64,000 bases of DNA from Paracrocinitomix mangrovi. GTDB lineage: Bacteria > Bacteroidota > Bacteroidia > Flavobacteriales_D > Crocinitomicaceae. Position numbers and translations under genes: made by a program. Within the stretch, counting starts at the first letter, position 1. Every line of letters starts with the position of its first letter. Of this stretch, positions 21,664-55,261 are shown one piece after another. The notes beneath the pieces are model-generated. The model searched no databases. It saw only the letters and a list, made by a program, of their open reading frames with translations, and was not told the DNA's origin. The stretch spans positions 2,108,001 to 2,172,000 of the forward strand of contig NZ_CP091819.1 of NCBI RefSeq assembly GCF_019740355.2. Direction: 5' to 3'.

Positions 21664-21756
21664 ATGTGCTAGCGTTTAGTTAAAGTTAGCAAATTTTTTA
21701 CGCCCTGAAGAGAGATGGACAAGAGTGGATGTAAGTTTACTTACTGTGTTATCTGC
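21664..21756 (-). repeat. attC site, short type
   Basis: About 90 bp: left end tgtgctagcgtttagttaaag, right arm gtttacttactgtgttatctgc. The long loop of neighbouring sites is missing. Confidence 0.68.
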
Positions 21757-21770
21757 AGTTTTTACACTGG

Positions 21771-22319: not shown

Positions 22320-22404
22320 TATAAAGTTTCAAGTTTATAACCTATAGATGAAAACATTGGAACGTTTCCATAATTGGAGCTAACTGGTATGTTCTGAATT
22401 GTTT

Positions 22405-22992
22405 TCAATCATTCCATTTAAAACAGTTGTATTGACTTTTTCTTCCAGCAGTTAAGTCCATTCCAGGTCTACTGCGTTCCCTTGCAGCTTGCCAAGTGCT
22501 TTCCGGAATATAAATTTGTAATTTCTCTGGCAGATATCGATTCAAGATAGTTACAACTTTGAAAACTGTTGAGTCAAAATTATTGTACATGACAATACTT
22601 GTACAACCTTTGTCCGCCTTGACTTTCAATTCATAACATGCTCCGCTTCTAACATACATATTGGAATAGGAAATTTCAGTATTCTCTAGACCTTTGAATA
22701 AACTGGAAATTGAGTCTAGATCGTTTTGATCAATCTGAATAATTAGGCTAGTGTCCTTCGATACATAAAAAGTGTCTTCAAATTCAGTGCCTTCGAATTC
22801 AATAAAATTAATGGAATCAGTTTCAATTTGATATGTATATTCTAAATCATGATTTTTAAGATAAATCCTATTTGAAGGTGCTCGTCCTAAATTTGAGCCA
22901 AGTCCATAAGAGGCATATTTAAGCTCAAAATCCTGACCGAAACAAACCGTTGAGACTAACAAAAAAAATAATATGAGTTGAGTTAAACGCAT
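22405..22992 (-). CDS. Exported hypothetical protein
   Basis: A 195-residue protein with a clear signal peptide (about 1-19, VCFGQ). The beta-rich body contains two Cys (GACYELKVKADKGCTSIVMYNN) likely joined as a disulfide. No family recognised. Confidence 0.6.
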   Translation of the reverse strand: MRLTQLILFFLLVSTVCFGQDFELKYASYGLGSNLGRAPSNRIYLKNHDLEYTYQIETDSINFIEFEGTEFEDTFYVSKDTSLIIQIDQNDLDSISSLFKGLENTEISYSNMYVRSGACYELKVKADKGCTSIVMYNNFDSTVFKVVTILNRYLPEKLQIYIPESTWQAARERSRPGMDLTAGRKSQYNCFKWND

Positions 22993-22999
22993 AATTATT

Positions 23000-23089
23000 C
23001 ATAACATTTACCTAAAGCTAACAATTTACTTTGTTCAACGAAAATAAAATTGTAGTTGGATTGCGTGCGTTTTACCTATTCTGTCAGCA
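23000..23089 (-). repeat. attC site, short type
   Basis: Left end cataacatttacctaaagc; right end gcgttttacctattctgtcagca, with the R'' core altered (gtcagca for gttagca). Confidence 0.62.
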
Positions 23090-23099
23090 ACAGTTCTCA

Positions 23100-23732
23100 T
23101 TAGTCAAATTCAAAATATACTTTGAACCATACTTTTCTACCTACTGAAGTCCTGTTCCTTGATTCACGCACCTTTTTATGGTACAGTTTATAGAAATAAA
23201 AATCACCTTTTCTTTTCATATTTACCTGTGCTAAATACTCCAATCTTACATGAAATGGAAGGAAATAAATTCTGTATGAGTTGTATGCTGGATCAAAATT
23301 AAATTCAATTGTATCCGAGAAATAGCGAATAATCAGAGTATCGTTTAGTGATGTTTGCGAAACTAAAAATTGTCCATCAAATACCATTTCAAGATTATGT
23401 CCATTTTGAACCTTGAAAACTTCAATTCTTGAACTGTCCATAATATTGAAAAGTTCAATTTTTATTGAATCAGAGTGAGCTTTTTCATTGAGTACTGAAG
23501 TTCCAGGTACTGGTATAGAATCATAATTGAATTTGATGTTTCGTTTTGATCTGTCATAGGTCCCAAAGCCAATTGACTGCCCAGTGCAATGATTGAAATG
23601 ATACTCAAATTTTCCATTATCGTAAAGGATGTAATAACGGCTGTACATATTCGCATCTCTTTCCCTTAAAGTATCTTGTGAGCTAGCGAGGAATGAAGAG
23701 CAAATGAAGAAAAGTGCAGATAACAACTTCAT
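23100..23732 (-). CDS. Exported hypothetical protein
   Basis: A 210-residue protein with a signal peptide (about 1-18, FLASSQ). The body is rich in Tyr, Phe and Arg (YYILYDNGKFEYHFNHCTG). The C-terminus is basic and ends in an aromatic strand. Unknown function. Confidence 0.6.
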   Translation of the reverse strand: MKLLSALFFICSSFLASSQDTLRERDANMYSRYYILYDNGKFEYHFNHCTGQSIGFGTYDRSKRNIKFNYDSIPVPGTSVLNEKAHSDSIKIELFNIMDSSRIEVFKVQNGHNLEMVFDGQFLVSQTSLNDTLIIRYFSDTIEFNFDPAYNSYRIYFLPFHVRLEYLAQVNMKRKGDFYFYKLYHKKVRESRNRTSVGRKVWFKVYFEFD

Positions 23733-23765
23733 GTGTTTTTGATGCTAAAAAAAGTAGATTCCATA

Positions 23766-23895
23766 AATGCCTAACTTTTGCTTAAAGTTAGGCATTTACT
23801 GTATTCAACGAAAATGAAATTGAAGTTGGATTAGTAGATGATACTTACAGACAAAAAGGAGAACATCAATTTAATAGAATATGTGGGACGTCGTT
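23766..23895 (-). repeat. Partial attC-like site
   Basis: The left arm atgcctaacttttgcttaaag and ggcatttac loop are recognisable. The right end is not; the atttaatagaatatgtggg stretch may be its remnant. Confidence 0.42.
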
Positions 23896-23907
23896 TTTTT
23901 TCTGTGG

Positions 23908-24489
23908 TCAGTGATAATTATCAAAAATCACTTCATTAAAATATTCAAATTTTTTAGGTTCATGAGTATTCGTCCAAATTCCATTTAAATCAAATTGAAC
24001 GATCATAAGTGAGTCTTTTATTTCTCTAAAAATAACGCTACCCTTTAAATCTGTGACTACCCAAAAATTAGAAAGAATCCCCATTTCCGTAATTTTTAGA
24101 TTCATTTGATCATTAGGTATTAAATATTCACTGTCAACCTTCAGATTGAGGTAATTTGAAATTTCAAAATGAATTTCAGGAGAGGAAATTAATATATCAG
24201 ATTGACCATGTACAGACTCCCCATCTGTATAACATTTTAATACTCTAGAATTAGGATTTTCAGAGCTTATTACGAAAATTGGAAAACTCACAGAAGAGTC
24301 AATTATTGAGGAATGAAATATCACAGGACTTTTATCTGTTTCTTGTTGAATTCCAGGTTCAATTGCATTTGCATTGTTATTGGTAAAATCAACCTCATTA
24401 TTAATTTCAATTCCTTCTGTTGCTGTGTTATGCGAACCACAATTGATTAACAGTAATGAAAGTGCGAAAAAGGAAAGAAATAGTTTCAT
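23908..24489 (-). CDS. Hypothetical lipoprotein
   Basis: A 193-residue lipoprotein (INC, Cys17) with a polar linker of about 35 residues, then a beta-rich domain. No family recognised. It is one of the array's many lipoprotein cassettes. Confidence 0.6.
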   Translation of the reverse strand: MKLFLSFFALSLLLINCGSHNTATEGIEINNEVDFTNNNANAIEPGIQQETDKSPVIFHSSIIDSSVSFPIFVISSENPNSRVLKCYTDGESVHGQSDILISSPEIHFEISNYLNLKVDSEYLIPNDQMNLKITEMGILSNFWVVTDLKGSVIFREIKDSLMIVQFDLNGIWTNTHEPKKFEYFNEVIFDNYH

Positions 24490-24495
24490 AACTCA

Positions 24496-24620
24496 TGGTA
24501 ACAAACGTTTGAGCAAAGCTATTATTTTACAGTTTCCAAAGCAAGTAAAAATGAAGTTGGATTAGGACTCTCAAAAACAATAAGATTTAGGGTAAAGGGA
24601 AAACAATCGGCGTTGTTTGC
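24496..24620 (-). repeat. Partial attC-like site
   Basis: The left arm ggtaacaaacgtttgagcaaagct is well kept, including the gagcaaag variant. The right arm has decayed (cggcgttgtttgctac). Confidence 0.42.
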
Positions 24621-24674
24621 TACATAAAATAGGAAATGATAACGAAATGCTTCACATTCTTTAAACAGTCCGTA

Positions 24675-25124
24675 TTATTTCACTTTCACACCTTTCTCCT
24701 TCAGTGTATCAAGGAAAAGCTTCATTGATTGCACGTTTTTTTTACCAGTTAGTATAGCGTAAAGTATATCTAAAATTGAAATTTTTCCGCCTGGATCAAT
24801 AAAATACGATTTGGACTTATTGCCTTCTTTGACCTTTATTTGGATATACATGTACAAATTAAATTCATAGAATTTCACATGTACTATATCATCATAAGTA
24901 TATCGCTTCTTTCCTAGGAAAATAAAACTTTCATTAAAGTATAAACTGCTTAGTTTGATATATAAAGTAGCGTAAAGAATACTAACAATTCCTAGAAAAA
25001 ACAGGAAGAATTTAGACGTTCCTTTATATAAAGCAAAAAAGCCAAATCCGTATAGTAATAGTGATAGAATATACTTTTTTACGAATGTTATATCTGATGA
25101 TATTCTAATTCCTTCCTCCTTCAT
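24675..25124 (-). CDS. Two-helix membrane protein with PH-like domain
   Basis: A 149-residue protein: two adjacent helices (about 15-55), then a beta-rich domain (SSLYFNESFIFLGKKRYTYDDIVHVKFYEF) like bacterial PH domains. Same plan as 30987-31463 and 14239-14739. Function unknown. Confidence 0.6.
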   Translation of the reverse strand: MKEEGIRISSDITFVKKYILSLLLYGFGFFALYKGTSKFFLFFLGIVSILYATLYIKLSSLYFNESFIFLGKKRYTYDDIVHVKFYEFNLYMYIQIKVKEGNKSKSYFIDPGGKISILDILYAILTGKKNVQSMKLFLDTLKEKGVKVK

Positions 25125-25157
25125 TCTTTGTCAAAATTTTGGGTTATTCGAGGTTAA

Positions 25158-25250
25158 AGCCGCGTTTGGCTAAAGCTAGCAAATTACTTTGTTCAACGAA
25201 AATAAAATTGAAGTTGGATTGCGTGCATTTTACCTATTGTGATATAACCT
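25158..25250 (-). repeat. attC site, short type
   Basis: Left arm gccgcgtttggctaaagc has a damaged outer core (gcg for aac). Right end ttttacctattgtgatataacc has ata where most sites have tta. Nearly the same sequence as 25722-25814. Confidence 0.58.
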
Positions 25251-25709
25251 GTTTTTCACTTCATCTAACAAAAGGGTACAGAGTTCCTTATTCGAAATGA
25301 ATTCAGCAGACTCTGAGAACATGTAGTCATATTCTACTTTGAATCCTTTTTGGGTTCCAGTAATTTTTTCTACTTCAGATTTTTCTATTAGCTCTTTTGT
25401 ATTGTTCCCCAGGTAATCAATTCCGGAGTATTTTCCGAATAATTTTCCAAGACCTTTTCTTCTAGAAATGTTCAGTTCCGCAAAATTTATTTTGTCCGAT
25501 TTGAAAAAAGCTATAGTCCTATAGGTATTGTATCCTTTTGTTGATTTTCGGATTTTCCCTTCAATTATTAGTTGTCCACCGTTGAAGTCCGTTGAGTAAT
25601 GGTATTCAGTCGTTTTACCGAATGAATGTGGCTGTTCATCAATTTTCAACACACCATTTGTTTCTTCAGCATATTGCTTCCAAAAATCATCTATTTCCTT
25701 CCAATTCAT
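25230..25709 (-). CDS. Hypothetical cytoplasmic protein
   Basis: About 159 residues. The frame is open to a TTG at 25727 that lies in the attC core; the ATG at 25709 (MNWKEIDDFWKQY) is preferred. The stop is inside the attC: the last seven codons read through its R'' and spacer, so the cassette end has become coding. No signal peptide. Family not recognised. Confidence 0.58.
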   Translation of the reverse strand: MNWKEIDDFWKQYAEETNGVLKIDEQPHSFGKTTEYHYSTDFNGGQLIIEGKIRKSTKGYNTYRTIAFFKSDKINFAELNISRRKGLGKLFGKYSGIDYLGNNTKELIEKSEVEKITGTQKGFKVEYDYMFSESAEFISNKELCTLLLDEVKNRLYHNR

Positions 25710-25721
25710 ATCACCAATGGC

Positions 25722-25814
25722 AAACAACGTTTGGCTAAAGCTAGCAATTTACTTTGTTCAACGAAAATGAAATTGTAGTTGGATTGCGTGCACTTTACCT
25801 ATTGTGATATAACC
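25722..25814 (-). repeat. attC site, short type
   Basis: Left end aaacaacgtttggctaaagc; right arm actttacctattgtgatataaccc. Very similar to the preceding site, suggesting exchange or duplication of sites. Confidence 0.65.
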
Positions 25815-25834
25815 CGTTTTCTATTCCAACAAAG

Positions 25835-26194
25835 CTAGTCTGTAATTGGTTCGCCTCCAATGCTCATAGGCGTACTAGCTGAATAGTCAATATTGTCAGT
25901 AAAATGCAAAATTATTCCAAGTAACAGTGTAATTCCAGCTAGAATTAGTTTGAGTCTAGCCCGTTTTTTAATCTGCGTCCAAATCCAAATCAATAAAATA
26001 AGTCCAAAAATCAAAGTCCAAATCATTAAAATTGGGTATTCCGTAATAGAATTATCTATTGGAGAGAATTCTTCTTGTAATTCAGGATGTTCAATTAAGA
26101 ATTCCTTTAAGTTCTGGTAATTCATTAACTCCATGATTTTATACGAAAACATGTAAACTAAGAATAATCCAGTCGATAGATTTATGAATTTCAT
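25835..26194 (-). CDS. Three-helix membrane protein, hypothetical
   Basis: A 119-residue protein with hydrophobic helices at about 5-20, 50-70 and 80-97, with basic residues between the last two (KKRARLK). No family recognised. Confidence 0.56.
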   Translation of the reverse strand: MKFINLSTGLFLVYMFSYKIMELMNYQNLKEFLIEHPELQEEFSPIDNSITEYPILMIWTLIFGLILLIWIWTQIKKRARLKLILAGITLLLGIILHFTDNIDYSASTPMSIGGEPITD

Positions 26195-26211
26195 AAGTCC
26201 TATTATAATGG

Positions 26212-26391
26212 GTTATAACGATTATGCAAAGTTAGGAATTTACCATGTTCAACGAAAGCTTTGCTGTAGTTGAATGCCGTCTTCGACTTAGTGTAGCAAA
26301 GCTTGATGTTCGGTGGCCTAAACCCCGGTCCCGATAGCTATCGGAAGGGAAGCCCGGATATGTACACGTACTGAGAGGTAATGTGTTATGT
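26212..26391 (-). repeat. attC site, long type
   Basis: Left end gggttataacgattatgcaaag; right end ggtaatgtgttatgtagc. The loop has a cccgatagctatcgg dyad. The left end pairs with the end of the cassette to its left (atataaccc). Confidence 0.66.
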
Positions 26392-26399
26392 AGCGCTTT

Positions 26400-26903
26400 C
26401 TACTCTGGGTCAAGTACAAACTTTTCTTTTGACCAATTAAGGAAATGGTCGTCAATAATCTGGTCAATATTACTTCGATTAGCTCCTTTCCAGTACCATT
26501 GAACTTCTTGTCTTAGAAGATCTTCCTTTGCCCATCTGAGCAATGCGAAGTCTTGGATAGACCTATTTAAATTAAATTCGTTATACATTCCACCAAGGAT
26601 TCTTAAAACTTCAATTGGTTTTCTTTTGTCATTTATAACTTGGTTTCTTAGGAACATTATATAATTACCAATAAGTTCTTGCTGATCATTAATATTAATG
26701 TTAAGTTCTCTGCAAACTGCATCTGTTAAATCTTTCATCTCAAATGCATAAAATGGAGGTCTTTCCCCAGCTAGAATATAAAGTGACTCAGAATTAAACC
26801 CAAGATTAATCATTTCTTCCGCCCAGTCAACCCACCGCATATCATTAACAACACCGGTTGCTTTAAGATATAACATTTCATATGTTGAATCTGGGAAGTT
26901 CAT
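26400..26903 (-). CDS. Hypothetical helical cytoplasmic protein
   Basis: A 167-residue all-helical protein without a signal peptide: MRWVDWAEEMINLGFNSESLYILAGE, then helices rich in Leu, Arg and Asn. It resembles small soluble proteins of unknown function common in mobile regions, but I cannot assign a family. Confidence 0.58.
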   Translation of the reverse strand: MNFPDSTYEMLYLKATGVVNDMRWVDWAEEMINLGFNSESLYILAGERPPFYAFEMKDLTDAVCRELNININDQQELIGNYIMFLRNQVINDKRKPIEVLRILGGMYNEFNLNRSIQDFALLRWAKEDLLRQEVQWYWKGANRSNIDQIIDDHFLNWSKEKFVLDPE

Positions 26904-26914
26904 GAGGCGAATGC

Positions 26915-27000
26915 TTCAAAACGTTTGGCTAAAGCTAGCAATTTACTTTGTTCAACGAAAATGAAATTAAAATAGAATGTCGATATAAAGTATGTTATAC
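26915..27000 (-). repeat. attC site, short type, right arm altered
   Basis: Left arm caaaacgtttggctaaagctagc is kept. The right part gatataaagtatgttatac keeps only the outer gttatac core. Confidence 0.55.
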
Positions 27001-27016
27001 AAATCACGGCTAATTT

Positions 27017-27574
27017 TCAATCAATCCAATTCTTTACGCCACAGAAGGTAAAAAATGTTTTTATTCGTTGAAGTCGGTTAGTATTGTCACAAGCGTATCC
27101 CCAAAATGCATCCACAGTACCATTCCATCTGTCACAGTCAAAAGCAATTTCAAAGAACGCTATTGGTTGCTGATTTCTATAAAATACTATTGCTTCATGA
27201 GGAAAATAATCGCAGTCCAAAGCCGACCTTTCATTTCCACAAACCTCTGTGACCTTCCAACTAAGAAAAGTAGATTTTAATGAGTCTATTTGCTCATCAT
27301 TCAACTCTATAGTTTCAAGAGAATTTTCTATTAAAACTTTGTCTCCTGAGATTAAATCAACGGGAACTTCATTTCCTACGCTTTCCTGATAAACAAATAG
27401 TTTTACTGAATTAAAACTGTTCCAAGGAAACAATGTGTCGAGATTATAAAGTTCTCTATAGTCTTGATACGCGCAAGTTATATTTTGCTCACCTTCTTCA
27501 GAACAGTCAATTGTTCCACAAGATAGAGTAAAGAAACAAATTGTGATAGTATTAATGACAATCCAAGTTCGCAT
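27017..27574 (-). CDS. Hypothetical lipoprotein, Cys-rich
   Basis: About 185 residues from ATG 27574 (MRTWIVINTITICFFTLSC, lipid Cys19). The frame is open to 27625, but the extra residues are translated attC and should be ignored. The mature part has several Cys pairs. No family recognised. Confidence 0.62.
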   Translation of the reverse strand: MRTWIVINTITICFFTLSCGTIDCSEEGEQNITCAYQDYRELYNLDTLFPWNSFNSVKLFVYQESVGNEVPVDLISGDKVLIENSLETIELNDEQIDSLKSTFLSWKVTEVCGNERSALDCDYFPHEAIVFYRNQQPIAFFEIAFDCDRWNGTVDAFWGYACDNTNRLQRIKTFFTFCGVKNWID

Positions 27575-27579
27575 TATAT

Positions 27580-27655
27580 AATTTAATGTTTGTGTAAAGC
27601 TAGTTCTTGAGCACGAACGGCACAAGCGGTATGCTTTACTTATTATGTTATGTTT
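27580..27655 (-). repeat. attC site, short type
   Basis: About 75 bp: left arm aatgtttgtgtaaagctag, right arm gctttacttattatgttatg. gtaaagc and gctttac pair exactly; the loop is short. Confidence 0.62.
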
Positions 27656-27675
27656 GGTTTTTTCAATTTTTTATG

Positions 27676-28095
27676 TCAATCTATTTCTAGCTTACATTCA
27701 TCAAATTCAATAAAAAGACATTCCCTAGTATTACTAACTTTCCAACTTCCATCAGTCCATAACATATCATAGCAAAATTCCATTTGTCCATACTTTACTC
27801 CATAAAAAGACCTTTCTTCTATTGATTTACATATGGCAGAATTTCCTTCTATTTCACATTGTACACATTTCACTTGAGTATTGTATTTTGTACATGGATT
27901 ATATTCATTAGTTTCCTTATAAAATACGGCGAAATCTCCAGTGGATAATTCTAAAACTTTATCTTGTTCACAATTAGCTATGGCTTCTGTGAATTCTTTG
28001 ACTACTTCTTCAGGAGTATCTGGTTCTGTGGAACAAGAAACAAGAGTTAAAAAAAGTATAGCCAAATAAGGGGATTTAATCAAAGTTTCTTTCAT
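27676..28095 (-). CDS. NTF2-like lipoprotein (TPEVV family)
   Basis: About 139 residues from ATG 28095 (MKETLIKSPYLAI, lipid Cys21). PDTPEEVVKEFTEAIANCEQDKVLELSTGDF is related to 18574-19338 and to the next gene. There are three spaced Cys pairs. It overlaps the end of 28076-28504, so both belong to one cassette; there is no attC between them. Function unknown. Confidence 0.63.
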   Translation of the reverse strand: MKETLIKSPYLAILFLTLVSCSTEPDTPEEVVKEFTEAIANCEQDKVLELSTGDFAVFYKETNEYNPCTKYNTQVKCVQCEIEGNSAICKSIEERSFYGVKYGQMEFCYDMLWTDGSWKVSNTRECLFIEFDECKLEID

Positions 28096-28504
28096 TAGGT
28101 TCTGATTCATCTATGTCATTGTTGTCTTTTAAAGTGATATCATAATCATGATTTAGATTATCAATCAACCACTTGTTATCTTCCTTAACAAGATCCCAAA
28201 AGGTTGTTATGAAGATCAGTTCTCTTTCTTCATAGCAGTTACACGTGGCTGTTTCGTTATTAACCTTACAAATTACGGAGTCAATTTTAGCTTCATATGG
28301 ACTACAACCTAATTCTATAGTGCCTTCCACAGATTCTTTGAAATTTCCTTTTTCAGTACATAAACTAAGAACTTCCTCGCATTTTCCCTGACTTAAGTAA
28401 GTTTCTATTTTTTTCACAACGTCTTCAGGCGTATCGGTGTTTGCCTTACATCCATGTAAAACTTGACTGACTATTAGGATAAATATGATAAAAGGGTATT
28501 TCAT
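28076..28504 (-). CDS. NTF2-like lipoprotein (TPEVV family)
   Basis: A 142-residue lipoprotein (HGC, Cys19): NTDTPEDVVKKIETYLSQGKCEEVLSLCTEKG, the same family as its downstream neighbour. The pair may have arisen by a tandem duplication inside the cassette followed by divergence. Function unknown. Confidence 0.63.
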   Translation of the reverse strand: MKYPFIIFILIVSQVLHGCKANTDTPEDVVKKIETYLSQGKCEEVLSLCTEKGNFKESVEGTIELGCSPYEAKIDSVICKVNNETATCNCYEERELIFITTFWDLVKEDNKWLIDNLNHDYDITLKDNNDIDESEPNERNFD

Positions 28505-28519
28505 TTATCAATATCAATT

Positions 28520-28731
28520 GAACATAACCATTGGGTAAAGTTAGGTATTTACCGTATTCAACGAAAGCTTTGCTGTAATTGAATGCCGTCTTCGCTTTCG
28601 TGTAGCTTCAGCGAAGCAAAGCCTGATGTACGGTAGAACCCCGGCCCTGATAGCTATCGGAAGATGGAAGCCCGAATATGTATACGAACTGGGAGGGAAA
28701 AGCATGGCCAGAGTGTCAGATGTGAACTTTA
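28520..28731 (-). repeat. attC site lacking its R'' end
   Basis: Left end gaacataaccattgggtaaag and loop are normal. The right arm stops at gtgaactttag and then runs straight into ttttctac; the usual cctattatgttatg is missing, so this site should not fold a complete attC. Confidence 0.6.
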
Positions 28732-28736
28732 GTTTT

Positions 28737-29138
28737 CTACATTTCAAAGCTCCAGCAACTTTCACCATTAGCATTGTCAGTCCGTTGATAGAAGATAGTG
28801 TCCGTGAGTGTGAGATCAAATGTTGTCATTTTACCTGATTCAAGAGTAAATATGATAGCTTTTATAGTATCATTTTTGTCCGTTCGGTAATTCCATTCGG
28901 TAGTAAAAAGCGAATCTTCATCAAACCAATACTGACCTGAAGCAATGGTGCAACCATCATGTCTTATCCAGTTTCCATCACTAAAAAATTCTATACATCC
29001 TTGATAATCAAAGGTTGAGTCTTTCGGAAACCTATATTGCCATAGTCCAGGAATTTCATTGTAAAATTTCCTTTCTAGTTCTGAGCGACAACCGGTAGCA
29101 ATTAGAAGCAAAAGAGATATGTAAATAATTCGTTGCAA
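28737..29138 (-). CDS. Lipocalin-like lipoprotein
   Basis: A 133-residue lipoprotein (TGC, Cys17) with PGLWQYRFPKDSTFDYQGCIEFFSDGNWIRHDGC, a lipocalin-like strand order with a disulfide-sized Cys pair. No function assigned. The attC after its stop is incomplete. Confidence 0.6.
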   Translation of the reverse strand: MQRIIYISLLLLIATGCRSELERKFYNEIPGLWQYRFPKDSTFDYQGCIEFFSDGNWIRHDGCTIASGQYWFDEDSLFTTEWNYRTDKNDTIKAIIFTLESGKMTTFDLTLTDTIFYQRTDNANGESCWSFEM

Positions 29139-29144
29139 GAATTA

Positions 29145-29358
29145 AAGCTAACATTTGGCTAAAGCTAGCAATTTACTTTGTTCAACGAATAGGAAATTGA
29201 AGTTGAATTGCTTGTGATCCCGATAGCTATCGGGAGTGTGGCAAAAAATCCCGGTCCCGATAACCATCAGGAGATGGACGCTCGGATAAGTATACGTAAT
29301 GGGAGGGAAAAGCGTGGTCAAGAGAGTCGGACATGAACTTTAGCTATTATGTTATGCA
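29145..29358 (-). repeat. attC site, long type
   Basis: Left end aagctaacatttggctaaagc; right end actttagctattatgttatgca. gctaaag and ctttagc pair. The loop has a perfect cccgatagctatcggg dyad at 29219-29234. Confidence 0.82.
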
Positions 29359-45340: not shown

Positions 45341-45538
45341 AGTTGCTAACGTTTGGGTAAAGCTAGTAATTTGTTACTTGCGCAGCAAGTGCAAATTACG
45401 TGCGAAAGTGCGCTGGCCAAACCCCGGATACTGGGCGCGTCCTACGTGAAGTGGCCAAACCAAGATATGTACACGCAAATGGGAGCAAGTGTGATGGACA
45501 AGGGAGGACGCTTTGCTTTACCTATTGTGTTATGCACA
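45341..45538 (-). repeat. attC site, long type
   Basis: Left end agttgctaacgtttgggtaaagc; right end gctttacctattgtgttatgcaca. Part of the exact tandem duplication (copy A). Loop hairpin acttgcgcagcaagt. Confidence 0.88.
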
Positions 45539-46107
45539 GTTTTAACCACCTAAGTCCGTAATTCTCTTTTTTGGATATGGATCATTAGGATTAATAGCTA
45601 ATGCTCTTTGAAACAACAGTAATGCTTTTTCATGGTTTCCTTCTTTAACATATTTTTCTGCTGTCTGAATAATTGCGAAATATTGCTCTTCATCTGAATC
45701 ACAATGTATTACCATTTTATCAATATCATTTATTCTAGAAGTGACATGAGCGTCTTGTTTACATCCTGAATAAATTCGATATGACAAGCAATAATTTCTT
45801 TTAGTAAATAAAGAGTCGGCGAACAAGACTACTGCCAGATTTGGATTCTTTGAATTTTCAATTTTGTCAACCAAAGATTCGCAAATTGAGATCATACTTT
45901 GTACATAGTTGAATTTCCATTCTTTTGAGGCTATTTTGTAATGATTGAGAGCTTTCTGGAATTTTTGATTTCTAAAATTTCTGTCGGCTTTATTTATTTC
46001 AGACTGATAAGCTTTCCAGTTTATATTAATCTCTTGGCAAAAGGTGGTCTTTGTGCAAAACAAAAAAATTAAGGTAAGTACTTTGATTATTTTTGCGTAA
46101 TTGTGCA
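45347..46107 (-). repeat. Exact tandem duplication of a whole cassette, copy A
   Basis: 761 bp that recurs at 46108-46868 (copy B), containing one attC body and one gene. The two encoded proteins are identical over 188 residues. The boundaries fall in the shared taac core. Confidence 0.9.
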
Positions 46108-46108
46108 T
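45542..46108 (-). CDS. Exported TPR-like protein, copy A
   Basis: A 188-residue protein with a signal peptide (about 1-24, TTFCQ). Two TPR-like pairs are visible: NFRNQKFQKALNHYKIASKEW and KYVKEGNHEKALLLFQRALAINPNDPYP. Identical to the protein at 46303-46869. Function unknown. Confidence 0.72.
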   Translation of the reverse strand: MHNYAKIIKVLTLIFLFCTKTTFCQEININWKAYQSEINKADRNFRNQKFQKALNHYKIASKEWKFNYVQSMISICESLVDKIENSKNPNLAVVLFADSLFTKRNYCLSYRIYSGCKQDAHVTSRINDIDKMVIHCDSDEEQYFAIIQTAEKYVKEGNHEKALLLFQRALAINPNDPYPKKRITDLGG

Positions 46109-46299
46109 AACGTTTGGGTAAAGCTAGTAATTTGTTACTTGCGCAGCAAGTGCAAATTACGTGCGAAAGTGCGCTGGCCAAACCCCGGATACTGGGCGCG
46201 TCCTACGTGAAGTGGCCAAACCAAGATATGTACACGCAAATGGGAGCAAGTGTGATGGACAAGGGAGGACGCTTTGCTTTACCTATTGTGTTATGCACA
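46102..46299 (-). repeat. attC site, long type
   Basis: Same sequence as 45341-45538 except the outer left end (tgtgcataac). The internal junction of the tandem duplication lies here. Confidence 0.88.
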
Positions 46300-46868
46300 G
46301 TTTTAACCACCTAAGTCCGTAATTCTCTTTTTTGGATATGGATCATTAGGATTAATAGCTAATGCTCTTTGAAACAACAGTAATGCTTTTTCATGGTTTC
46401 CTTCTTTAACATATTTTTCTGCTGTCTGAATAATTGCGAAATATTGCTCTTCATCTGAATCACAATGTATTACCATTTTATCAATATCATTTATTCTAGA
46501 AGTGACATGAGCGTCTTGTTTACATCCTGAATAAATTCGATATGACAAGCAATAATTTCTTTTAGTAAATAAAGAGTCGGCGAACAAGACTACTGCCAGA
46601 TTTGGATTCTTTGAATTTTCAATTTTGTCAACCAAAGATTCGCAAATTGAGATCATACTTTGTACATAGTTGAATTTCCATTCTTTTGAGGCTATTTTGT
46701 AATGATTGAGAGCTTTCTGGAATTTTTGATTTCTAAAATTTCTGTCGGCTTTATTTATTTCAGACTGATAAGCTTTCCAGTTTATATTAATCTCTTGGCA
46801 AAAGGTGGTCTTTGTGCAAAACAAAAAAATTAAGGTAAGTACTTTGATTATTTTTGCGTAATTGTGCA
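46108..46868 (-). repeat. Exact tandem duplication of a whole cassette, copy B
   Basis: 761-bp second copy of 45347-46107. The next base after it diverges (gtttgag against gtttggg), so the repeat ends cleanly. Confidence 0.9.
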
Positions 46869-46869
46869 T
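46303..46869 (-). CDS. Exported TPR-like protein, copy B
   Basis: Identical 188-residue product to 45542-46108: signal peptide, then two TPR-like helix pairs. The presence of its own attC makes it a complete, independently movable cassette. Confidence 0.72.
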   Translation of the reverse strand: MHNYAKIIKVLTLIFLFCTKTTFCQEININWKAYQSEINKADRNFRNQKFQKALNHYKIASKEWKFNYVQSMISICESLVDKIENSKNPNLAVVLFADSLFTKRNYCLSYRIYSGCKQDAHVTSRINDIDKMVIHCDSDEEQYFAIIQTAEKYVKEGNHEKALLLFQRALAINPNDPYPKKRITDLGG

Positions 46870-46940
46870 AACGTTTGAGTAAAAATAGGCATTGATGCCG
46901 CACTGCGCAAGCAGTTATTTTTACTTAATATGTTATGTAT
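46863..46940 (-). repeat. attC site, short type
   Basis: About 78 bp: left end tgtgcataacgtttgagtaaaa, right arm gttatttttacttaatatgttatgtatt. Its inner arms are gtaaaaat and atttttac, a further compensated version. Short loop with tgcgcaagca. Confidence 0.82.
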
Positions 46941-46988: not shown

Positions 46989-48275
46989 ATGCTTATAGAA
47001 TTTAGTGTTGGCAATTTTTATTCGTTTAAGGATATTCAGACAATTAGTCTAAATGCTGCAAATATTGTATCAAAATATCCTTTTGTGGATCAAAATAATG
47101 TTTTCAATCATAAAGGGCTTAAATTATTGAAATCTAAGGCAATTTATGGTGCAAACGCAAGTGGGAAAAGTAACCTTTCTAGAGCTTTTGTCTCATTTGT
47201 TTCAATTATTAATGAGTCCGTAAAGAATGATGGATTATTGGAGTTTAGAATTTTTCCCTTTGAACTCTCTACGGAAACTGATTCCAAGCCTTCGTTTTTT
47301 CAGATGGTTTTCTCAGTTAACAATGTTATTTATCGGTATGGGTTTGAAGCGGATAGATCAAAAATTCATTCTGAATGGTTGTATGGTACTCCCAACAAGC
47401 GTGAAGTGTATTTTTTTAGAAGAAAAGGGAAGAAAATAGAGATTAACAGCAATCAATTTTTAGAAGGACATAAAATTGAACAGTTGCTCGGCAAAGATAG
47501 TGATGTTGCAAGGCCGAATTCTCTTTTTTTAACGACCGTTGCTACTTTAAATGGTAAACTAGCAAAATCCATTGTAGACTATTTGTCCGGATTGGTTGTG
47601 ATCACAGGATTGATGGATTTTGAATTAAGAAGATTTGCTGAAACTGCACTACAAAATGACAAAGTTCGAGCAAGAATAGCCAAAATGCTAAAGAATGCAG
47701 ATATTGGACTGGAGGATATTAATGTCTTAGAAATAAATCAAGACAATCTAGGAGATGATGCGCCTGAAGCACTTATGAAAAAAGTAAGGGGAGGTAAAAA
47801 ACATAATATTGTTATTACCGATCATATGAAATATGATAAGTCAGGTAAAAAGTTAGGAACTTTCCCAATGAGTTTAGACATCCATGAGTCTGAAGGAACG
47901 AAGAAAATGTTTGAAATAAGTCCAGTTCTTATGGATGTGTTGAATAATGGTAAGGTGCTCGTGTTTGATGAATTTGATGCTAGATTGCACCCCCTATTAA
48001 CGCGAAAGATTGTGGAGATGTTCAATTCAAAGCGAACAAATAAAAAGAACGCACAGATAATTTTTGCTACTCATGACACCAATTTGCTTTCAGCAAAATT
48101 ATTGAGGAGAGATCAAATTTCATTTGTAGAGAAGGATAAATACGGAGCGAGTCACCTTTATAGTCTTGTGGATTTTAAAGGAGTAAGAAATGACTCTTCA
48201 TTTGAAAAGGACTACATCCAAGGAAAATTTGGCGCTATACCATTTTTAGGAAATTTAGAAGAGGTATTTGGATAG
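46989..48275 (+). CDS. AAA ATPase of the AbiL/RloA type (COG1106-like), probable phage defence
   Basis: A 428-residue P-loop ATPase. Walker A is GANASGKS (about 54-61, Lys60); Walker B is VLVFDEFDARLHP (near 323), and a His-switch IIFATHD lies near 357. MLIEFSVGNFYSFKD at the N-terminus is typical of the AAA15/OLD-like SMC-related group. Followed 3 bp later by RloB, it forms the AbiLi/AbiLii arrangement known from Lactococcus abortive infection; PARIS and OLD systems share the ATPase-plus-Toprim logic. It probably senses phage and unleashes its partner. Inverted relative to other cassettes. Confidence 0.83.
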   Translation: MLIEFSVGNFYSFKDIQTISLNAANIVSKYPFVDQNNVFNHKGLKLLKSKAIYGANASGKSNLSRAFVSFVSIINESVKNDGLLEFRIFPFELSTETDSKPSFFQMVFSVNNVIYRYGFEADRSKIHSEWLYGTPNKREVYFFRRKGKKIEINSNQFLEGHKIEQLLGKDSDVARPNSLFLTTVATLNGKLAKSIVDYLSGLVVITGLMDFELRRFAETALQNDKVRARIAKMLKNADIGLEDINVLEINQDNLGDDAPEALMKKVRGGKKHNIVITDHMKYDKSGKKLGTFPMSLDIHESEGTKKMFEISPVLMDVLNNGKVLVFDEFDARLHPLLTRKIVEMFNSKRTNKKNAQIIFATHDTNLLSAKLLRRDQISFVEKDKYGASHLYSLVDFKGVRNDSSFEKDYIQGKFGAIPFLGNLEEVFG

Positions 48276-48278
48276 ATT

Positions 48279-48956
48279 ATGCCAAAGAAGACTAGACATA
48301 TTAAGATCACAGATCAAAGCAAACCTTGGTTAAGAAAAAAGAGCTTGACCAAATACAAAATTGAAGAATTACAACCCAAAGATTCAATTTTGATTGTTTG
48401 TGAAGGTCAAACTGAAGAACGATATTTTAAGTCTTTTCCAGTTTCAAATGCTCAGGTACAGCCGGTTGGTGTAGGTTGTAGCCATAAGTCCTTAGTCGAA
48501 TGTGCAATTAATATGGCTGAGGACGAAGATTATGATCAGGTTTGGTGTGTTTTCGATATGGATTTTAAACCTGGAGAAAATGGTCAATTTGAAAGATTTG
48601 ATAATGCAATCAATATGACAGTATCTAACGGATTTAATTGTGCATACTCTAATGATGCTTTCGAATTATGGTTTGTCTTGCACTACGAACACATTGATCA
48701 AGAATATTTGCGAGATTTTTTATTCGAAAAATTAAGTCAGTTTTGGGATATATCATACGTTAGAGAAGGGAAGAAATGGGCATTTGCAAATGATATATAT
48801 TCCCGTTTGGAAAGAGATGAAAGAGCAAACCAAGAGTTGGCAATAGATCGTGCGGAAAAATTATTTGAACTTAATTCTGATAAACCACCGCACAAACAAA
48901 TTCCTGTAACACTCGTTTTTGAACTTGTTAAGATCTTAAATGAGTATATAGAATAA
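48279..48956 (+). CDS. RloB-type Toprim-like partner (AbiLii-like)
   Basis: A 225-residue protein of the RloB type. Toprim-like acidic residues are visible: the Glu motif VCE42GQTE46ERYF and the Asp pair VWCVFD93MD95F. By analogy with OLD and PARIS nucleases these would bind metal for nucleic acid cleavage. Separated by 3 bp from the ATPase, so the two are co-translated. It lies in a cassette whose ends are exact complements (gttatgtatt with aatacataac). Confidence 0.83.
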   Translation: MPKKTRHIKITDQSKPWLRKKSLTKYKIEELQPKDSILIVCEGQTEERYFKSFPVSNAQVQPVGVGCSHKSLVECAINMAEDEDYDQVWCVFDMDFKPGENGQFERFDNAINMTVSNGFNCAYSNDAFELWFVLHYEHIDQEYLRDFLFEKLSQFWDISYVREGKKWAFANDIYSRLERDERANQELAIDRAEKLFELNSDKPPHKQIPVTLVFELVKILNEYIE

Positions 48957-49129
48957 TACATAACGTTTGGGTAAAGTTAGGCATTTATGCCGTCTTGATG
49001 TGCGCAGGCCAAAACCCCGGATTCTGGTTTGTCCGACCGAGTGATGGACGCCCGGATATGTACACGTACTGGGAGGGAAAAGCGTGGCCAGAGAGTCGGA
49101 CATGAACTTTACCTATTATGTTAGCAACA
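48956..49129 (-). repeat. attC site, aggcattta subfamily
   Basis: Left end aatacataacgtttgggtaaag; right end aactttacctattatgttagcaaca. gtaaag and ctttac pair. It closes the inverted AbiL cassette. Confidence 0.88.
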
Positions 49130-50999: not shown

Positions 51000-51194
51000 G
51001 GTACACAACGTTTGGCTAAAGCTAGTGATTTGTTGCTTGCGCAGCAAGTACAAAACACGTGCGATAGTGCGGAGGCCAAAACCCCGTATCGTGGCTGTCC
51101 ACCGAGTTAGGCCAAACCATTATATGGACACGCCAATGGGAGCAAGTGCGCCGGCCAAGGGTGGACGCTTTGCTTTAGCTATTGTGTTAGCAAC
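51000..51194 (-). repeat. attC site, long type
   Basis: Left end ggtacacaacgtttggctaaagc, right end gctttagctattgtgttagcaaca. Loop with gcttgcgcagcaagtac hairpin, as in 36233. Confidence 0.88.
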
Positions 51195-51200
51195 AGTTTT

Positions 51201-52043
51201 CTATTTCATGTACATAATTAACCCTTTGTATTTGTACTTTTTATTAAAATCCTGAAACCTCCATGCCATTTCAGGAAAACTTATTATTATTTCATTTACT
51301 TTTTTTCTGGAAAGAAGTAAATGGATTTGTCTTTTTGAGTCAAGTTGAGCAATTGGAATTTCATTGATTCCGTTATAATAGTATACCTCACTTTTAGCAA
51401 TGACAGGTATTGAATCTTCTGTAATTTCTTTGCGAAAAATTAAATGATTATTATTCTGAGTTTCAAAATATTCATATTGAGTGATAATTTGATCACGTGG
51501 ACAATACTCATAAGAACCATTATAAAATGTCATTAGATCACTACTGTCAGAAAAATACCTACAGTCACCTCCACAACTCAATAAATAGTCAAATTGAGAA
51601 TAATCACAGAGACTGTCTATAATTTTGAAAAACTTGATACTTCTGGGTCTTCCTTCATAGTTGTATGGCTCTTTTTCATGCCACAAACGAAATTCTTTTG
51701 TGATTAGGATCGGTGAATTTAATGTATCAAACTTTATATAGTTATGGATGAATAGCTTTCCTTTAAAAAACTCACTTCGATCCGTAAGAATTCCTTTTTT
51801 TGAAAATGAATATTTCGTTGAATCTCCTCTATTATATTTTGTCCAAATACCTTGGAATTTATTTTGTTCGAAAATACCGCAGTAAAATGTTACAGTTGAG
51901 TCCCAAGGATGAATAAATGAGACCTGATAATAGCCATTAACATTCAGGTCTTTCCAACTTCTAATTTTAATAGTATCAGTTTGTCCAAAACTAAATAGCG
52001 ACTGAAAAAATAAGATTAGAAGTGTTAATCTTTTAGTGATCAT
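51201..52043 (-). CDS. Exported hypothetical protein, attI-proximal cassette
   Basis: A 280-residue protein with a signal peptide (about 1-20, LFSFGQ). The body is rich in aromatic and charged residues with a Cys cluster (LLSCGGDCRYFSD, YEYCPRDQ). It is the last cassette before the array boundary and, by polarity, probably the newest. No family recognised. Ends are exact complements (gttagcaaca with tgttgctaac). Confidence 0.63.
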   Translation of the reverse strand: MITKRLTLLILFFQSLFSFGQTDTIKIRSWKDLNVNGYYQVSFIHPWDSTVTFYCGIFEQNKFQGIWTKYNRGDSTKYSFSKKGILTDRSEFFKGKLFIHNYIKFDTLNSPILITKEFRLWHEKEPYNYEGRPRSIKFFKIIDSLCDYSQFDYLLSCGGDCRYFSDSSDLMTFYNGSYEYCPRDQIITQYEYFETQNNNHLIFRKEITEDSIPVIAKSEVYYYNGINEIPIAQLDSKRQIHLLLSRKKVNEIIISFPEMAWRFQDFNKKYKYKGLIMYMK

Positions 52044-52094
52044 TTCGGAAGTTCTATTTTATTTATAAAACCTGATTATGGAATGGTTACTAAT

Positions 52095-52153
52095 TGTTGC
52101 TAACATCCGAATAAAGTAACTAGTTACTTTATTCCTTTTATAGTTATTGTTCA
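52095..52153 (-). repeat. Compact terminal attC- or attI-like site with perfect palindrome
   Basis: About 55 bp: left core tgttgctaacatccg, then a perfect 26-bp palindrome at 52109-52134 (half-site GAATAAAGTAACT), then spacer ccttttata and gttattg. It has all attC parts without a loop. It bounds the array; no cassette gene follows on its right. Confidence 0.6.
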
Positions 52154-52478
52154 CCTAATTTATAAAAAAGAATTGAACTCAATTCAAATTGAATTTAAGT
52201 CTTTAATTGCTTTCAGATTGCTTGAAATATTAGATAAATACTGAATCTTGAGGTTGGTGAAAATTTTGAAAGAACTTATAATTTTAAGATAATTAAAATG
52301 GAACGAACCTAAAATTATAAGCGTGTATTTATACGTTTAATTATACGACTATTCCAGCTTAGGGATTGAGCGCGCCAGGCTGGTGGGTGGTTGCGGAGCT
52401 CTTAATTTGCGCAGCCAATTAAAGCGACTGAGCGAAAGCCCGACCAACGGTAGTTGGGAAGCCCCAAATACAAAATAA
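52154..52478. other. Intergenic region with structured GC-rich block
   Basis: No gene is seen. The left part is AT-rich. The block at about 52359-52466 is far richer in G+C than its surroundings and contains short stems (CCAAC/GTTGG at 52444-52457 and TTAATT/AATTAA near 52402-52422). It may be a REP-like element, an RNA or a remnant of the integron platform; none can be shown. Confidence 0.4.
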
Positions 52479-52501
52479 GAGAGCCTGTAAAACAGGCTCT
52501 C
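52479..52501 (-). terminator. Terminator of dps
   Basis: GAGAGCCTGT and ACAGGCTCTC form a perfect 10-bp stem with a 3-nt loop. On the minus strand it is followed by TTATTTT, 26 bp past the dps stop. Confidence 0.8.
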
Positions 52502-52526
52502 CTTTCACTTAATTCAACTATTTATA

Positions 52527-52994
52527 TTACCCCAAATAAGAGGTTAACATCCAAACTAGTTTTTCACTTTGTGAGATGTAATCACTCATTAAAGAGTTGG
52601 TTCCTTCATCATCTGCATCAGCAGAAAGGCTTAACAAGGCTCTTTCTTTGCCAATTAAAACAGAAAAATTATTGATAACATGCTGTACTCCGGCAGGTCC
52701 GTCTGACACATTATTAATTTCCTTGATTTCTGAATTATTGATATAATCTGTCATGGTATGCAACGGAGTTCCGCCCAAGGTTAAAATACGTTCTGCTATT
52801 TCATCAACTTTTAAAATGGCATCATTGTACAGCTCTTCAAATTTTAAGTGCAGTTCAAAAAATTCTTTCCCCTTTACATTCCAGTGTAATCCTCTTAGAT
52901 TTTGATAAAATATTTGGTAATTGGCCAAAAGATCATTCAATCCTTGTGACAATTGTTTTGCTTTTTCTACCTCAATTCCTATTGCGTTTTTCAT
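52527..52994 (-). CDS. dps: Dps, DNA-protecting ferritin-like protein
   Basis: A 155-residue four-helix protein with the Dps ferroxidase pattern: NLRGLHWNVKGKEFFELHLKFEELYNDAILKVDEIAERILTLGG holds the His and Asp/Glu ligands shared by neighbouring subunits. Dps dodecamers oxidise iron with peroxide and protect DNA in stationary phase. Single gene with its own terminator. Confidence 0.92.
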   Translation of the reverse strand: MKNAIGIEVEKAKQLSQGLNDLLANYQIFYQNLRGLHWNVKGKEFFELHLKFEELYNDAILKVDEIAERILTLGGTPLHTMTDYINNSEIKEINNVSDGPAGVQHVINNFSVLIGKERALLSLSADADDEGTNSLMSDYISQSEKLVWMLTSYLG

Positions 52995-53152
52995 TGTTTT
53001 TAGTTTTGTTTCACTACAAAGTTGGGGACAATTAAGGTATAAATCAAATCGATAATATTGATTACACTATAGATTATCTCTAAGAGAATTAAAGGCTTAA
53101 CATTAGAACTTGCTATAAATGAATTTTTTAGTTTTATATTAGACTTTTACTA

Positions 53153-55261
53153 GTGAGAACCCAATTTAAAATACTACTACTCAGCGCACTTTTTTTGTGT
53201 CCAATTTTCTCTATTGGACAAGTAGATTACTTTAAAGAATTTGAAGAAAGCCTGGACAATGACAGTCTTAGCTGGAGAGATAAAGGCCTGGAAATGCATG
53301 CCGTGGTGAAAAACATTCATTTTCACCCCGAACAAAAAATGGCCAACTTAATGCGTGTTTGGCCCATTGTTCAACGCTATAACCAAATTGAGCTTTACTG
53401 GCAATGGCACAACATTTTAAACCTGATTTTTAGGGAGCAAAATGAAGTAAATAAAGCCATTGCTCACGGCTACAAAATGCTTGAAAAGGCGGAGGAATAC
53501 AACAACCCTTATTGGAAATCTGAGGCATACAACAATTTATACGCTACCCATGTGAACCTTGGAATGACTGAGCAGGCTAAAGGATTTTTAATTAAAGCAC
53601 AGGAGCAGGCAATTATAACCGGTGATTCGCAATTAATAAGCACCAGCTCATACTACCTGGGATATGCCTATTATTCAGAGTTTGAAAATGACTCTGCCAT
53701 TTACTTTTTAGAAAAATCTGTTCAACACCGAACTTTATTTAAGACAAAAGACATTAATGTAGAACCTGGTTACCTATTGGCCAGAACTTTTATGCGCGAT
53801 AAACAATTTGAAAGGTCAATTACCATTTTATTGCAATGCGCAGAAGAGTCAAAACAGATTAAGGGGGAATATTACAGCCAATATTATCATGCCGGTCCGT
53901 ACATGTACATTTCAAACGCTTATGCTTTTTTGCACAATTGGGATTCGGCGGTTTACTATATGAATGAGGCGTTTAAAGAGTATAAAGCTTTTGATGAAGA
54001 GCTCTATATTCAAGCACATTATTATTGTGGATCTGCCTTTATATCTTCAGGGAATGAAAAGCTTGGTTTGCCGTTAATGAACTACCTGTTAGATTCAACT
54101 GATTTTCCGGCGCAACACGTTTATCCGTTTTTAGCAAAGGCATTTCGTGGAATGAAGCAACATGAAAAAGCCTATGAATATTATGACAAAAACCTTGCAA
54201 TAATTGACAGTGTAAACAAGGCCCGCATCAAAGAAATGTCTGACGTATTGGAGCAATCTTCACAAGCTGAATTGGCCATACAAAAGCAGATGGATGAAAA
54301 GAAACAACAGTTGGCTGAAGAAAAGACGCAGGCCCAAAAACAACAAAAAAACATCATTTTACTCAGTGTGGCTTTTGTGGGAATATTGATTTTGATTTTT
54401 GCCCGCATCCTTTTTAAGCGCTACAAAATTATTAAGGAACAAAAAGAGGAAATTCAAGAACAGAAGATGCAGGTAGAGGAGAAAAACGAAGAGATTTTAG
54501 ACTCTATCAACTACGCCAAAAAAATTCAGGATGCCATTCTACCTCCGGATACCTTTATCAATAAACACTTAAAAGACGCCTATGTTTTTTACAAGCCAAA
54601 AGATGTTGTTGCAGGAGATTTTTACTGGATTGAAGAGGTAGGTGACCATTTATTTATTGCTGCCGCAGATTGCACCGGACATGGAGTTCCGGGTGCTATG
54701 GTTTCGGTAGTTTGCCACAATGCCTTGAACCGCGCCATTAGAGAGTTTGCCTTACATAAACCGGCAGAGATTTTGGATAAAACCAAAGAGTTGGTGATTG
54801 AGACTTTTTCAAAAAGTGAAAACCAGGTAAGGGATGGAATGGATATCGCTTTGATGAGTCTTTCACTTGCTGATTTGAAAAAAGGTGGTGAAAGCATGGA
54901 AGTCAACTTTGCAGGTGCCAATAATCCGCTATGGATCATTAGAAAAGACAATGATGACATTGAAGAAATAAAAGGTGATAAGCAGCCTGTTGGTTTTCAT
55001 GAAGAAAGCACCGCTTTCACTAATCACATAGTTACCATCAATAAGGGAGATTTGGTTTACCTGTTTACTGATGGATATGCCGATCAGTTTGGAGGGGACA
55101 AAGGGAAAAAAATGAAGAATAAAAACTTCAAAAATCTCCTGGTAAAATACCGTGAAGAGCCCGTTAAAAAACAACATTTGCTTTTGGAAACTGCCTTTGA
55201 AAAATGGAAGGGAGAAATTGAACAGCTAGATGACGTTTGCGTAATAGGTGCCAGATTCTAA
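53153..55261 (+). CDS. TPR sensor protein with SpoIIE-type PP2C phosphatase domain
   Basis: A 702-residue protein starting at GTG 53153. Signal peptide (about 1-22), periplasmic TPR region (about 60-370), coiled coil (about 365-398), one membrane helix (about 399-421), second coiled coil (about 422-455), then a SpoIIE phosphatase domain (about 470-702) with PKDVVAGDFYWIEE, AAADCTGHGVPGAMVS and LFTDGYADQFGG, the metal-binding Asp residues. It would turn a periplasmic signal into dephosphorylation of a cytoplasmic partner, typically an anti-sigma-factor antagonist. Confidence 0.88.
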   Translation: MRTQFKILLLSALFLCPIFSIGQVDYFKEFEESLDNDSLSWRDKGLEMHAVVKNIHFHPEQKMANLMRVWPIVQRYNQIELYWQWHNILNLIFREQNEVNKAIAHGYKMLEKAEEYNNPYWKSEAYNNLYATHVNLGMTEQAKGFLIKAQEQAIITGDSQLISTSSYYLGYAYYSEFENDSAIYFLEKSVQHRTLFKTKDINVEPGYLLARTFMRDKQFERSITILLQCAEESKQIKGEYYSQYYHAGPYMYISNAYAFLHNWDSAVYYMNEAFKEYKAFDEELYIQAHYYCGSAFISSGNEKLGLPLMNYLLDSTDFPAQHVYPFLAKAFRGMKQHEKAYEYYDKNLAIIDSVNKARIKEMSDVLEQSSQAELAIQKQMDEKKQQLAEEKTQAQKQQKNIILLSVAFVGILILIFARILFKRYKIIKEQKEEIQEQKMQVEEKNEEILDSINYAKKIQDAILPPDTFINKHLKDAYVFYKPKDVVAGDFYWIEEVGDHLFIAAADCTGHGVPGAMVSVVCHNALNRAIREFALHKPAEILDKTKELVIETFSKSENQVRDGMDIALMSLSLADLKKGGESMEVNFAGANNPLWIIRKDNDDIEEIKGDKQPVGFHEESTAFTNHIVTINKGDLVYLFTDGYADQFGGDKGKKMKNKNFKNLLVKYREEPVKKQHLLLETAFEKWKGEIEQLDDVCVIGARF

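Follow-up and report, generated by a model that had tools for sequence, protein, structure and literature searches.

A palindromic attI site heads an integron-type cassette array and recurs beside a recombinase gene that lacks the IntI-specific stretch

The window, by which we mean the whole 64-kb stretch of DNA analyzed, carried a long array of gene cassettes ending near 52.1 kb at a perfect palindrome (Table 1). Because the attC sites and most of the cassette genes lie on the minus strand, 52.1 kb is the entry (attI) end of the array, as the preliminary description had expected. Cassettes were separated by attC sites with the integron layout R''-L''...L'-R', and a scan for the L'-R' motif alone gave 31 matches between 20018 and 51192; from 52.1 towards 64 kb, the attC motif scan gave one weak match, at 60908. 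Two observations concern the array content. On the plus strand at 46989-48956, between the attC sites 46866-46938 and 48958-49126, a two-gene unit encoding an AAA_21 ATPase and an RloB-like protein runs against the cassette direction and is possibly a defence cassette. An 18-bp palindrome, TCCCGATAGCTATCGGGA, has four copies in the array region (29218, 30750, 32566, and 33990).

Table 1. Coordinates of the features discussed. Positions are those of the window unless a genome coordinate is given; a point marks a feature without strand.
Feature	Position	Strand	Basis or remark
Window in the genome	G000:C1:2108001-2172000
Distal array, attC weaker or degenerate by the scans used	20018-29146	-	Motif matches without good R'' partners; no full site
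Rest of the array, with 19 of its 20 full attC sites	29146-50998	-	Array scan
First-cassette attC (R'' TGCTAAC; its resident R', GTTGTGT, comes from the next cassette)	51003-51192	-	Array scan
First-cassette ORF, 280 aa	51201-52043	-	No Pfam match at E 0.001
R' box GTTAGCA, 4 nt past the palindrome on the minus strand	52098-52104	-	Sequence
Spacer GGAT, from hairpin to G^TT	52105-52108	-	Sequence; spacing similar in relatives
Perfect 26-bp palindrome GAATAAAGTAACTAGTTACTTTATTC, the putative attI hairpin (L''-L' without variable loop)	52109-52134	-	Palindrome count, folding, genome copies, covarying hairpins
R''-like CAATAAC, far side of the hairpin	52143-52149	-	Identical in three genome copies
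Stretch matching the integrase-gene position of the complete platform	52153-52325	.	No integrase remnant
Operator- or promoter-like motif TATTTATACGTTTAATTATACG	52326-52347	+	Whole-genome motif search
Integrase gene (protein P0001)	G000:C1:2329887-2331029		About 171 kb from the window attI

Read on the minus strand, the site consists of the R''-like CAATAAC, 8 nt, the palindrome, GGAT, and G^TTAGCA, followed by the first cassette. Both the 26-bp palindrome and the attC-like outer parts (R' and R''-like boxes) had been noted in the preliminary description, and the palindrome was confirmed 4 nt before G^TT. The R' box was recognized from the identity of three genomic copies of the site, which stops at GGATGTT, and from its 7/7 match to the R'' of the first cassette's attC. 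The crossover G^TT would accordingly be placed between 52104 and 52103, with TTAGCA probably part of the first cassette. The role of CAATAAC is uncertain, as its partnership with R' is not kept in relatives.

The palindrome was the longest perfect one in the window, the others of at least 18 bp being four, each of 18 bp; for this length and the same composition, 0.003 per 64 kb would be expected by chance. At up to three mismatches, it occurred at a single place in the window, and 0/100 shuffles contained a match. Folding of the single strand gave a stem of 11 bp closed by a loop of 4 nt (z of -5.8 for the minus strand and -5.0 for the plus strand). It does not have the form of an intrinsic terminator, a G+C-rich stem followed by a T run, and a terminator scan of 51900-52600 returned two terminator-like sites, neither of them the palindrome.

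A genome search with window positions 52000-52250 as the query revealed two further places, so that the 26-mer occurs three times in the chromosome, each time heading a cassette array. At 2.331 Mb, it lies just past the stop codon of a gene for a 380-aa tyrosine recombinase, which is transcribed towards the array that follows; at 1.770 Mb, a copy differing by one base heads a third array, and no integrase gene was found there. The chromosome thus holds one complete platform, in which attI adjoins an integrase gene, and two platforms that have the same attI and lack an integrase gene; the window has no such gene in cis. These places were the only ones, and the suggestion that the palindrome might be a common terminator or repeat of the genome was rejected. 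Window and integrase copies were letter-identical over 53 bp (68 bp at 93% in the genome search), while their flanks had only short motifs in common. Past the GGATGTT common to all three copies come the cassettes; the next four letters there, AGCA, still agree between the window and integrase copies. On the other side of the palindrome (from 52136 onwards), the two integrase-less copies were alike, with 79% identity over 271 bp.

The near-palindromic 22-nt motif TATTTATACGTTTAATTATACG was likewise found at three places in 4.37 Mb at up to two mismatches, and these were the three platforms. It lies 49 nt upstream of the integrase gene (G000:C1:2329816) and beside each of the two integrase-less attI sites (in the window and at G000:C1:1769831), with the same order relative to attI at all platforms, and is a candidate operator or promoter. 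Two more short matches between platforms, in the same order, were weak (E 0.03 to 0.09). When the protein P0001 was compared by tblastn with 51901-53200, no integrase remnant was found beside the window attI (best E 0.094). The window platform looks like a complete platform whose integrase gene has gone, or it may never have had one. The genome contains four tyrosine recombinase genes recognized by PF00589, the nearest of which is about 171 kb from the window array; when 3.5 kb around each was searched with one rule, attC sites were found near one of the four and near none of the other three. In a second species of the genus, eight attC sites were detected in an array that has no integrase and stands behind a near-copy, with one pair broken, of that species' own attI; in two other genomes an attI copy was found on the integrase side only.

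The three arrays contained 71 attC sites (20, 28, and 23), with 0, 0, and 1 on the opposite strand. In integrons, a cassette carries along the bases that follow G^TT, and these are complementary to the R'' of its own attC. Of the 71 cassettes, 66 were taken for a junction test, five longer than 2,500 bp being dropped, and 60 were informative. In 56/60, R'' paired better with the start of its own cassette, and in two with the resident R'; two were ties. The first cassettes at the three attI sites matched their own attC at 7/7, 7/7, and 6/7 positions. This pattern is the signature of recombination at G^TT. Of the attC L stems, 50/71 had 7-10 contiguous pairs in one fixed register and 21/71 broke at the first or second pair, for which reason we do not claim that all attC sites here are without extrahelical bases.

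Cassettes were also shared between arrays. A 681-bp cassette with its attC was letter-identical in one copy in the integrase array and two in the third array, the identity stopping at 4-6 nt, counted from the GTT that follows, and bodies of 504 and 377 bp were identical between the same two arrays. The window cassettes had their close matches within the window array and in the third array: cassettes 6 and 7 (about 45344-46869) form an identical tandem pair of 761 bp each, with 9/761 differences from one third-array cassette. None of the window cassettes was near-identical to one of the integrase array, the best match being 76% over 165 bp.

The recombinase encoded at 2.331 Mb is related to integron integrases and distinct from them. 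P0001 scored 202 bits against TIGR02249 (integron integrase), below the cut-off of 265, and 233 bits against the XerA model NF040815, above the cut-off of 220. TIGR02249 was matched at 8-179 and 240-315 only, with profile positions 180-239 unmatched, and the unaligned middle comprised 34 residues in P0001 against 76 in IntI4 (2A3V). This length stayed within about 3 residues across 17 members of the clade. The missing middle stretch probably corresponds to the additional, IntI-specific domain (I2 region), which is not seen in P0001; the catalytic residues of the family were conserved in the integrase alignment. In a relative (L057), the catalytic domain matched XerA (Z 25.7), and the middle stretch of P0001 was of Xer-like length. 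It is by the IntI-specific domain that IntI is told apart (PMC9024848, PMC2426708), and the passages concerned place it, with helix I2, near the C-terminus around patch III (PMC9024848, PMC9668308).

In a tree calculated without the genome's own recombinase at 380 kb, 14 canonical IntI proteins were monophyletic (100/100) and the new clade fell outside them, the order of the two being left open by the tree. The new lineage may have been without I2 from the start, or may have lost it ahead of the origin of the IntI clade. We describe P0001 as a Xer/IntI-type tyrosine recombinase without the I2 stretch and with an extra N-terminal domain that is perhaps HARP- or XPB-DRD-like. The N-terminal part, about 95 residues, is a separate domain. 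Its structure model for L057 (pLDDT 78) matched XPB best (Z 6.3), XPB entries taking the seven top places; eIF1-type chains were tied at Z 5.9, and the SMARCAL1 HARP domain (4o66) reached Z 4.2. Scores of this size may reflect no more than a common arrangement. Foldseek with the N-terminal model gave no match at E <= 0.001. The Pfam HARP profile (PF07443) recognized a distant relative, L077, above its cut-off (E 9e-7) and another, L059, below it, and gave no match in P0001, L057, L064, or L069; DUF5710 gave weak matches in three relatives and none in P0001 or L057. A literature search on the HARP link returned nothing. Domains of the HARP and XPB damage-recognition kinds have distorted or branched DNA as their target, and the assignment proposed for the N-terminal domain, drawn from distant relatives and middling Z values, is put forward with a perhaps.

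Integrase matches at E <= 1e-60 were present in 103/199 genomes, with 25 places in the close clade (E about 1e-112 or better), and at least 80 relative loci were kept, including those of Winogradskyella ursingii, Seonamhaeicola aphaedonensis, and Aequorivita sinensis. The integrase stop codon was often followed by a palindrome or hairpin, and then by a short spacer and GTT. With a fixed rule, a perfect 8/8 stem 4-7 nt ahead of GTT was found in 17/32 loci of the integrase clade and in 0/62 loci of other tyrosine recombinases; a generic palindrome after any recombinase gene was thereby rejected. Compared with shuffles in the same scan (300 for each family locus and 100 for each control), p was below 0.01 in 17/32 clade loci and 1/62 controls, after 2/34 family and 4/66 control loci without sequence or match had been dropped. 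Hairpins in L063, L064, and L141 were missed by the rule because of its window or loop length. By eye, a clear hairpin was seen in 25/30 loci with an integrase at least 48% identical, and not in the remaining five (L036, L038, L041, L043, and L055). The search for the palindrome beside an integrase gene, proposed earlier as a check, was therefore answered twice: the same palindrome directly past the integrase gene of the same genome, and hairpins with changed letters and kept pairing in the 25 close relatives.

Covariation was examined in 28 loci picked by eye for a hairpin, whose bodies were delimited by eye at TA...TA. The set leaves aside the five loci just named, the hairpins of distant relatives (L063, L064, and L152), other arrangements, and near-duplicates such as L148. 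At pairs 3-7, 132/140 cells were Watson-Crick, against a mean of 59 on arm exchange, with 0/5000 as high. With the two delimiting TA pairs, constant by choice, included, 188/196 cells were paired compared to 115 in shuffles. Compensated changes numbered 58 cells, against a mean of 13 expected (0/5000 as high). Among the 5' arms, 21 were different in the 28 loci, and the inner letters varied widely. The bodies were 17, 18, 20, 21, or 22 nt long, one with a long loop, and the distance from hairpin to G^TT was similar across relatives. The non-Watson-Crick cells (two G-T, two A-C, and four others) showed no strand bias. These alignments indicate that the palindrome is kept as a structure and not as a sequence.

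Beyond the close clade, many relatives at 37-43% identity had other arrangements. In L143, L150, L151, and L163, a hairpin with GTACAATA-like arms was seen 3' of the integrase, about 20 nt or more ahead of GTT, and this is possibly a second attI type of more distant relatives. At canonical IntI loci of the same phylum, the same rule applied to 250 bp on each side found an 8/8 stem in 0/30 on the 3' side and in 2/30 on the 5' side. Three loci with IntI above the cut-off (L177, L186, and L194) had weaker hairpins on the 3' side, starting with TATAAACC or TAAGCC, ahead of GTT; a foldable attI is thus not strictly tied to a missing I2, and may be older or wider than the I2-less lineage.

An attC finder, which allowed mismatches and no bulges, found 22 sites in 95 kb downstream of the relatives' integrase genes and 5 in 42 kb of control; some look like noise, and single sites are insecure. 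In eight relatives, the first detected attC matched the attI junction at 7/7 positions in five, 6/7 in one, and 4/7 in two (L052 and L136 were left out as doubtful). In 9/22 of the sites found (in L057, L065, L053, L137, L138, L139, and L034), pair 7 of the L stem was A.C on the top strand (T.G on the bottom), and this mismatch is a candidate for marking the strand instead of an extrahelical base.

We are nearly certain that the cassette array in the window is of integron type and that the palindromic site is its attI. The preliminary description offered a remnant attI or a specialized end site; attI holds, and "remnant" is probably too weak, given that the first cassette starts as expected from insertion at G^TT and that the third platform, without integrase, holds cassettes letter-identical to those of the integrase platform. 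We propose that the one integrase of this chromosome serves all three attI sites in trans, and, with less assurance, that it would recognize attI by its form, a compact hairpin that the palindrome would extrude in a single strand or a cruciform. The attI would then be a miniature, loop-less attC consisting of an L''-L' stem, a short spacer, and G^TT, attI x attC recombination would resemble attC x attC recombination, and the extra N-terminal domain may take over from I2 in reading the hairpin. Taken as a whole (attI, one integrase in trans, and a hairpin-shaped attI acting as a mini-attC), this explanation seems to us probable. Of its parts, service in trans by one integrase is likely; the case is strongest for the third array and weakest for the window array, because no window cassette is near-identical to a cassette of the integrase array. 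Such action could lie in the past or be owed to an integrase since lost, and homologous exchange between repeated cassettes could add to the sharing. Folded recognition of attI is favoured over recognition as a duplex, if by a smaller measure.

The main rival holds that two integrase protomers bind the palindrome as an inverted repeat in double-stranded DNA, its halves being accessory or core arms, with attI recombining as a duplex and its letters drifting along with the integrase. Covariation and symmetry would fit two-fold protein binding equally well, as would the non-Watson-Crick cells without strand bias. The attI1 of class 1 integrons is an entry site with a GTT crossover, as here. Canonical attI is described as non-palindromic (PMC3053210) and double-stranded (PMC7790495), and single-stranded attI is reported to have given no product with IntI1 (PMC2117344), whereas here a perfect palindrome is present. 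The repeat lies wholly on one side of the crossover, however, and is not centred there, and the inner arm letters differ as widely as described above. The arm spacing varies by single bases, which would rotate half-sites against each other; these length differences and the loops lead us to favour, without proof, a hairpin over protein half-sites in fixed phase, and we consider the duplex reading less probable. That the hairpin works in RNA, ending or stabilizing the integrase transcript, with its place beside attI incidental, would agree with its position directly past the integrase stop codon at the complete locus. However, both integrase-less platforms of this chromosome have kept it, and so, but for one broken pair, has the integrase-less platform of another species. 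Read in the sense of the integrase transcript, it is not followed by a T run; the terminator scan did not return it, and its distance to G^TT is similar across relatives. We regard this role as very unlikely.

Nor do we think it likely that the attI of the window is a fossil and its array an ordinary CALIN, no more than a dead fragment. The window has neither an integrase gene in cis nor a remnant of one, its distal attC sites look weaker, and it shares no near-identical cassettes with the integrase array. Against this, the 53 bp around its palindrome have stayed letter-identical to the integrase-side copy between flanks that share only short motifs, and the identical tandem pair together with the 9/761 match to the third array suggests fairly recent movement. 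A reading of the site as a degenerate, attC-like end repeat at the distal end of the array, suggested by its likeness to a loop-less attC, can practically be dismissed: the orientation of the array refutes it, cassette polarity making this the entry end, and the same site adjoins the integrase gene.

The platforms were compared with known systems. The Treponema denticola-type integron with reverse intI (PMC3607928) is alike in its attC array, its GTT junction, and an integrase gene that reads towards attI, in the same direction as the cassettes; here, by contrast, the recombinase is under the IntI cut-off, lacks the IntI-specific stretch, and has several attI sites per integrase. In the main text of that paper, no word beginning with "palindrom" occurs. 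Typical Spirochaetota IntI are described in reverse orientation, and archaeal integrases as keeping the IntI domain with attI downstream of intI (PMC9668308). With 20 attC sites and no neighbouring integrase, the window array falls under the definition of a CALIN (at least two attC sites without neighbouring integrase), and resembles CALINs as described in PMC9024848 and PMC8618304; it differs in that, like the complete platform, it has kept its attI intact along with the motif that elsewhere lies upstream of the integrase gene. XerA/XerC-like recombinases are alike in the catalytic domain and the length of the middle stretch, whereas the recombinase here has an extra N-terminal domain and its gene is at attC/attI cassette arrays. 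Since the arrays have the features of integron platforms and the recombinase lacks those of IntI, the system is best classed, on its sequences, as a distinct integron variant and not as a standard IntI integron.

A broader proposal, which we find possible and stop short of favouring, is a second integron lineage in the Flavobacteriia and their relatives, in which both sites are folded hairpins, an I2-less recombinase reads shape through a HARP-like N-terminal domain, and one integrase serves several attI sites in trans; the choice of strand may there rest on the conserved attC wobble and not on extrahelical bases. The I2 helix is held to let integron integrases use folded single-stranded sites (PMC7790495), and the IntI-specific domain is described in the literature as required for cassette capture. 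A natural I2-less recombinase at attC arrays that look used would point to another solution or to a stage that preceded I2, and opens the origin of integrons to testing. Among the matches listed in a literature search of titles and abstracts, neither a palindromic attI nor an I2-less integron integrase was found.

Such platforms might be scored as CALINs or escape notice. This has a bearing on the report that complete integrons are scarce in Bacteroidetes, for which In0 elements and one complete integron, in Salinibacter, are described (PMC9024848). A covarying attI would serve as a marker for finding them, even without an integrase gene. In our own survey, canonical IntI above the cut-off was present in 105/395 genomes of the phylum, and 1 of the 107 matches came from the class of the window. 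Homologues of the integrase were also observed on plasmids of Persicobacter, Rufibacter, Pontibacter, and Chryseobacterium, with 95-98% of the protein covered, the N-terminal domain included.
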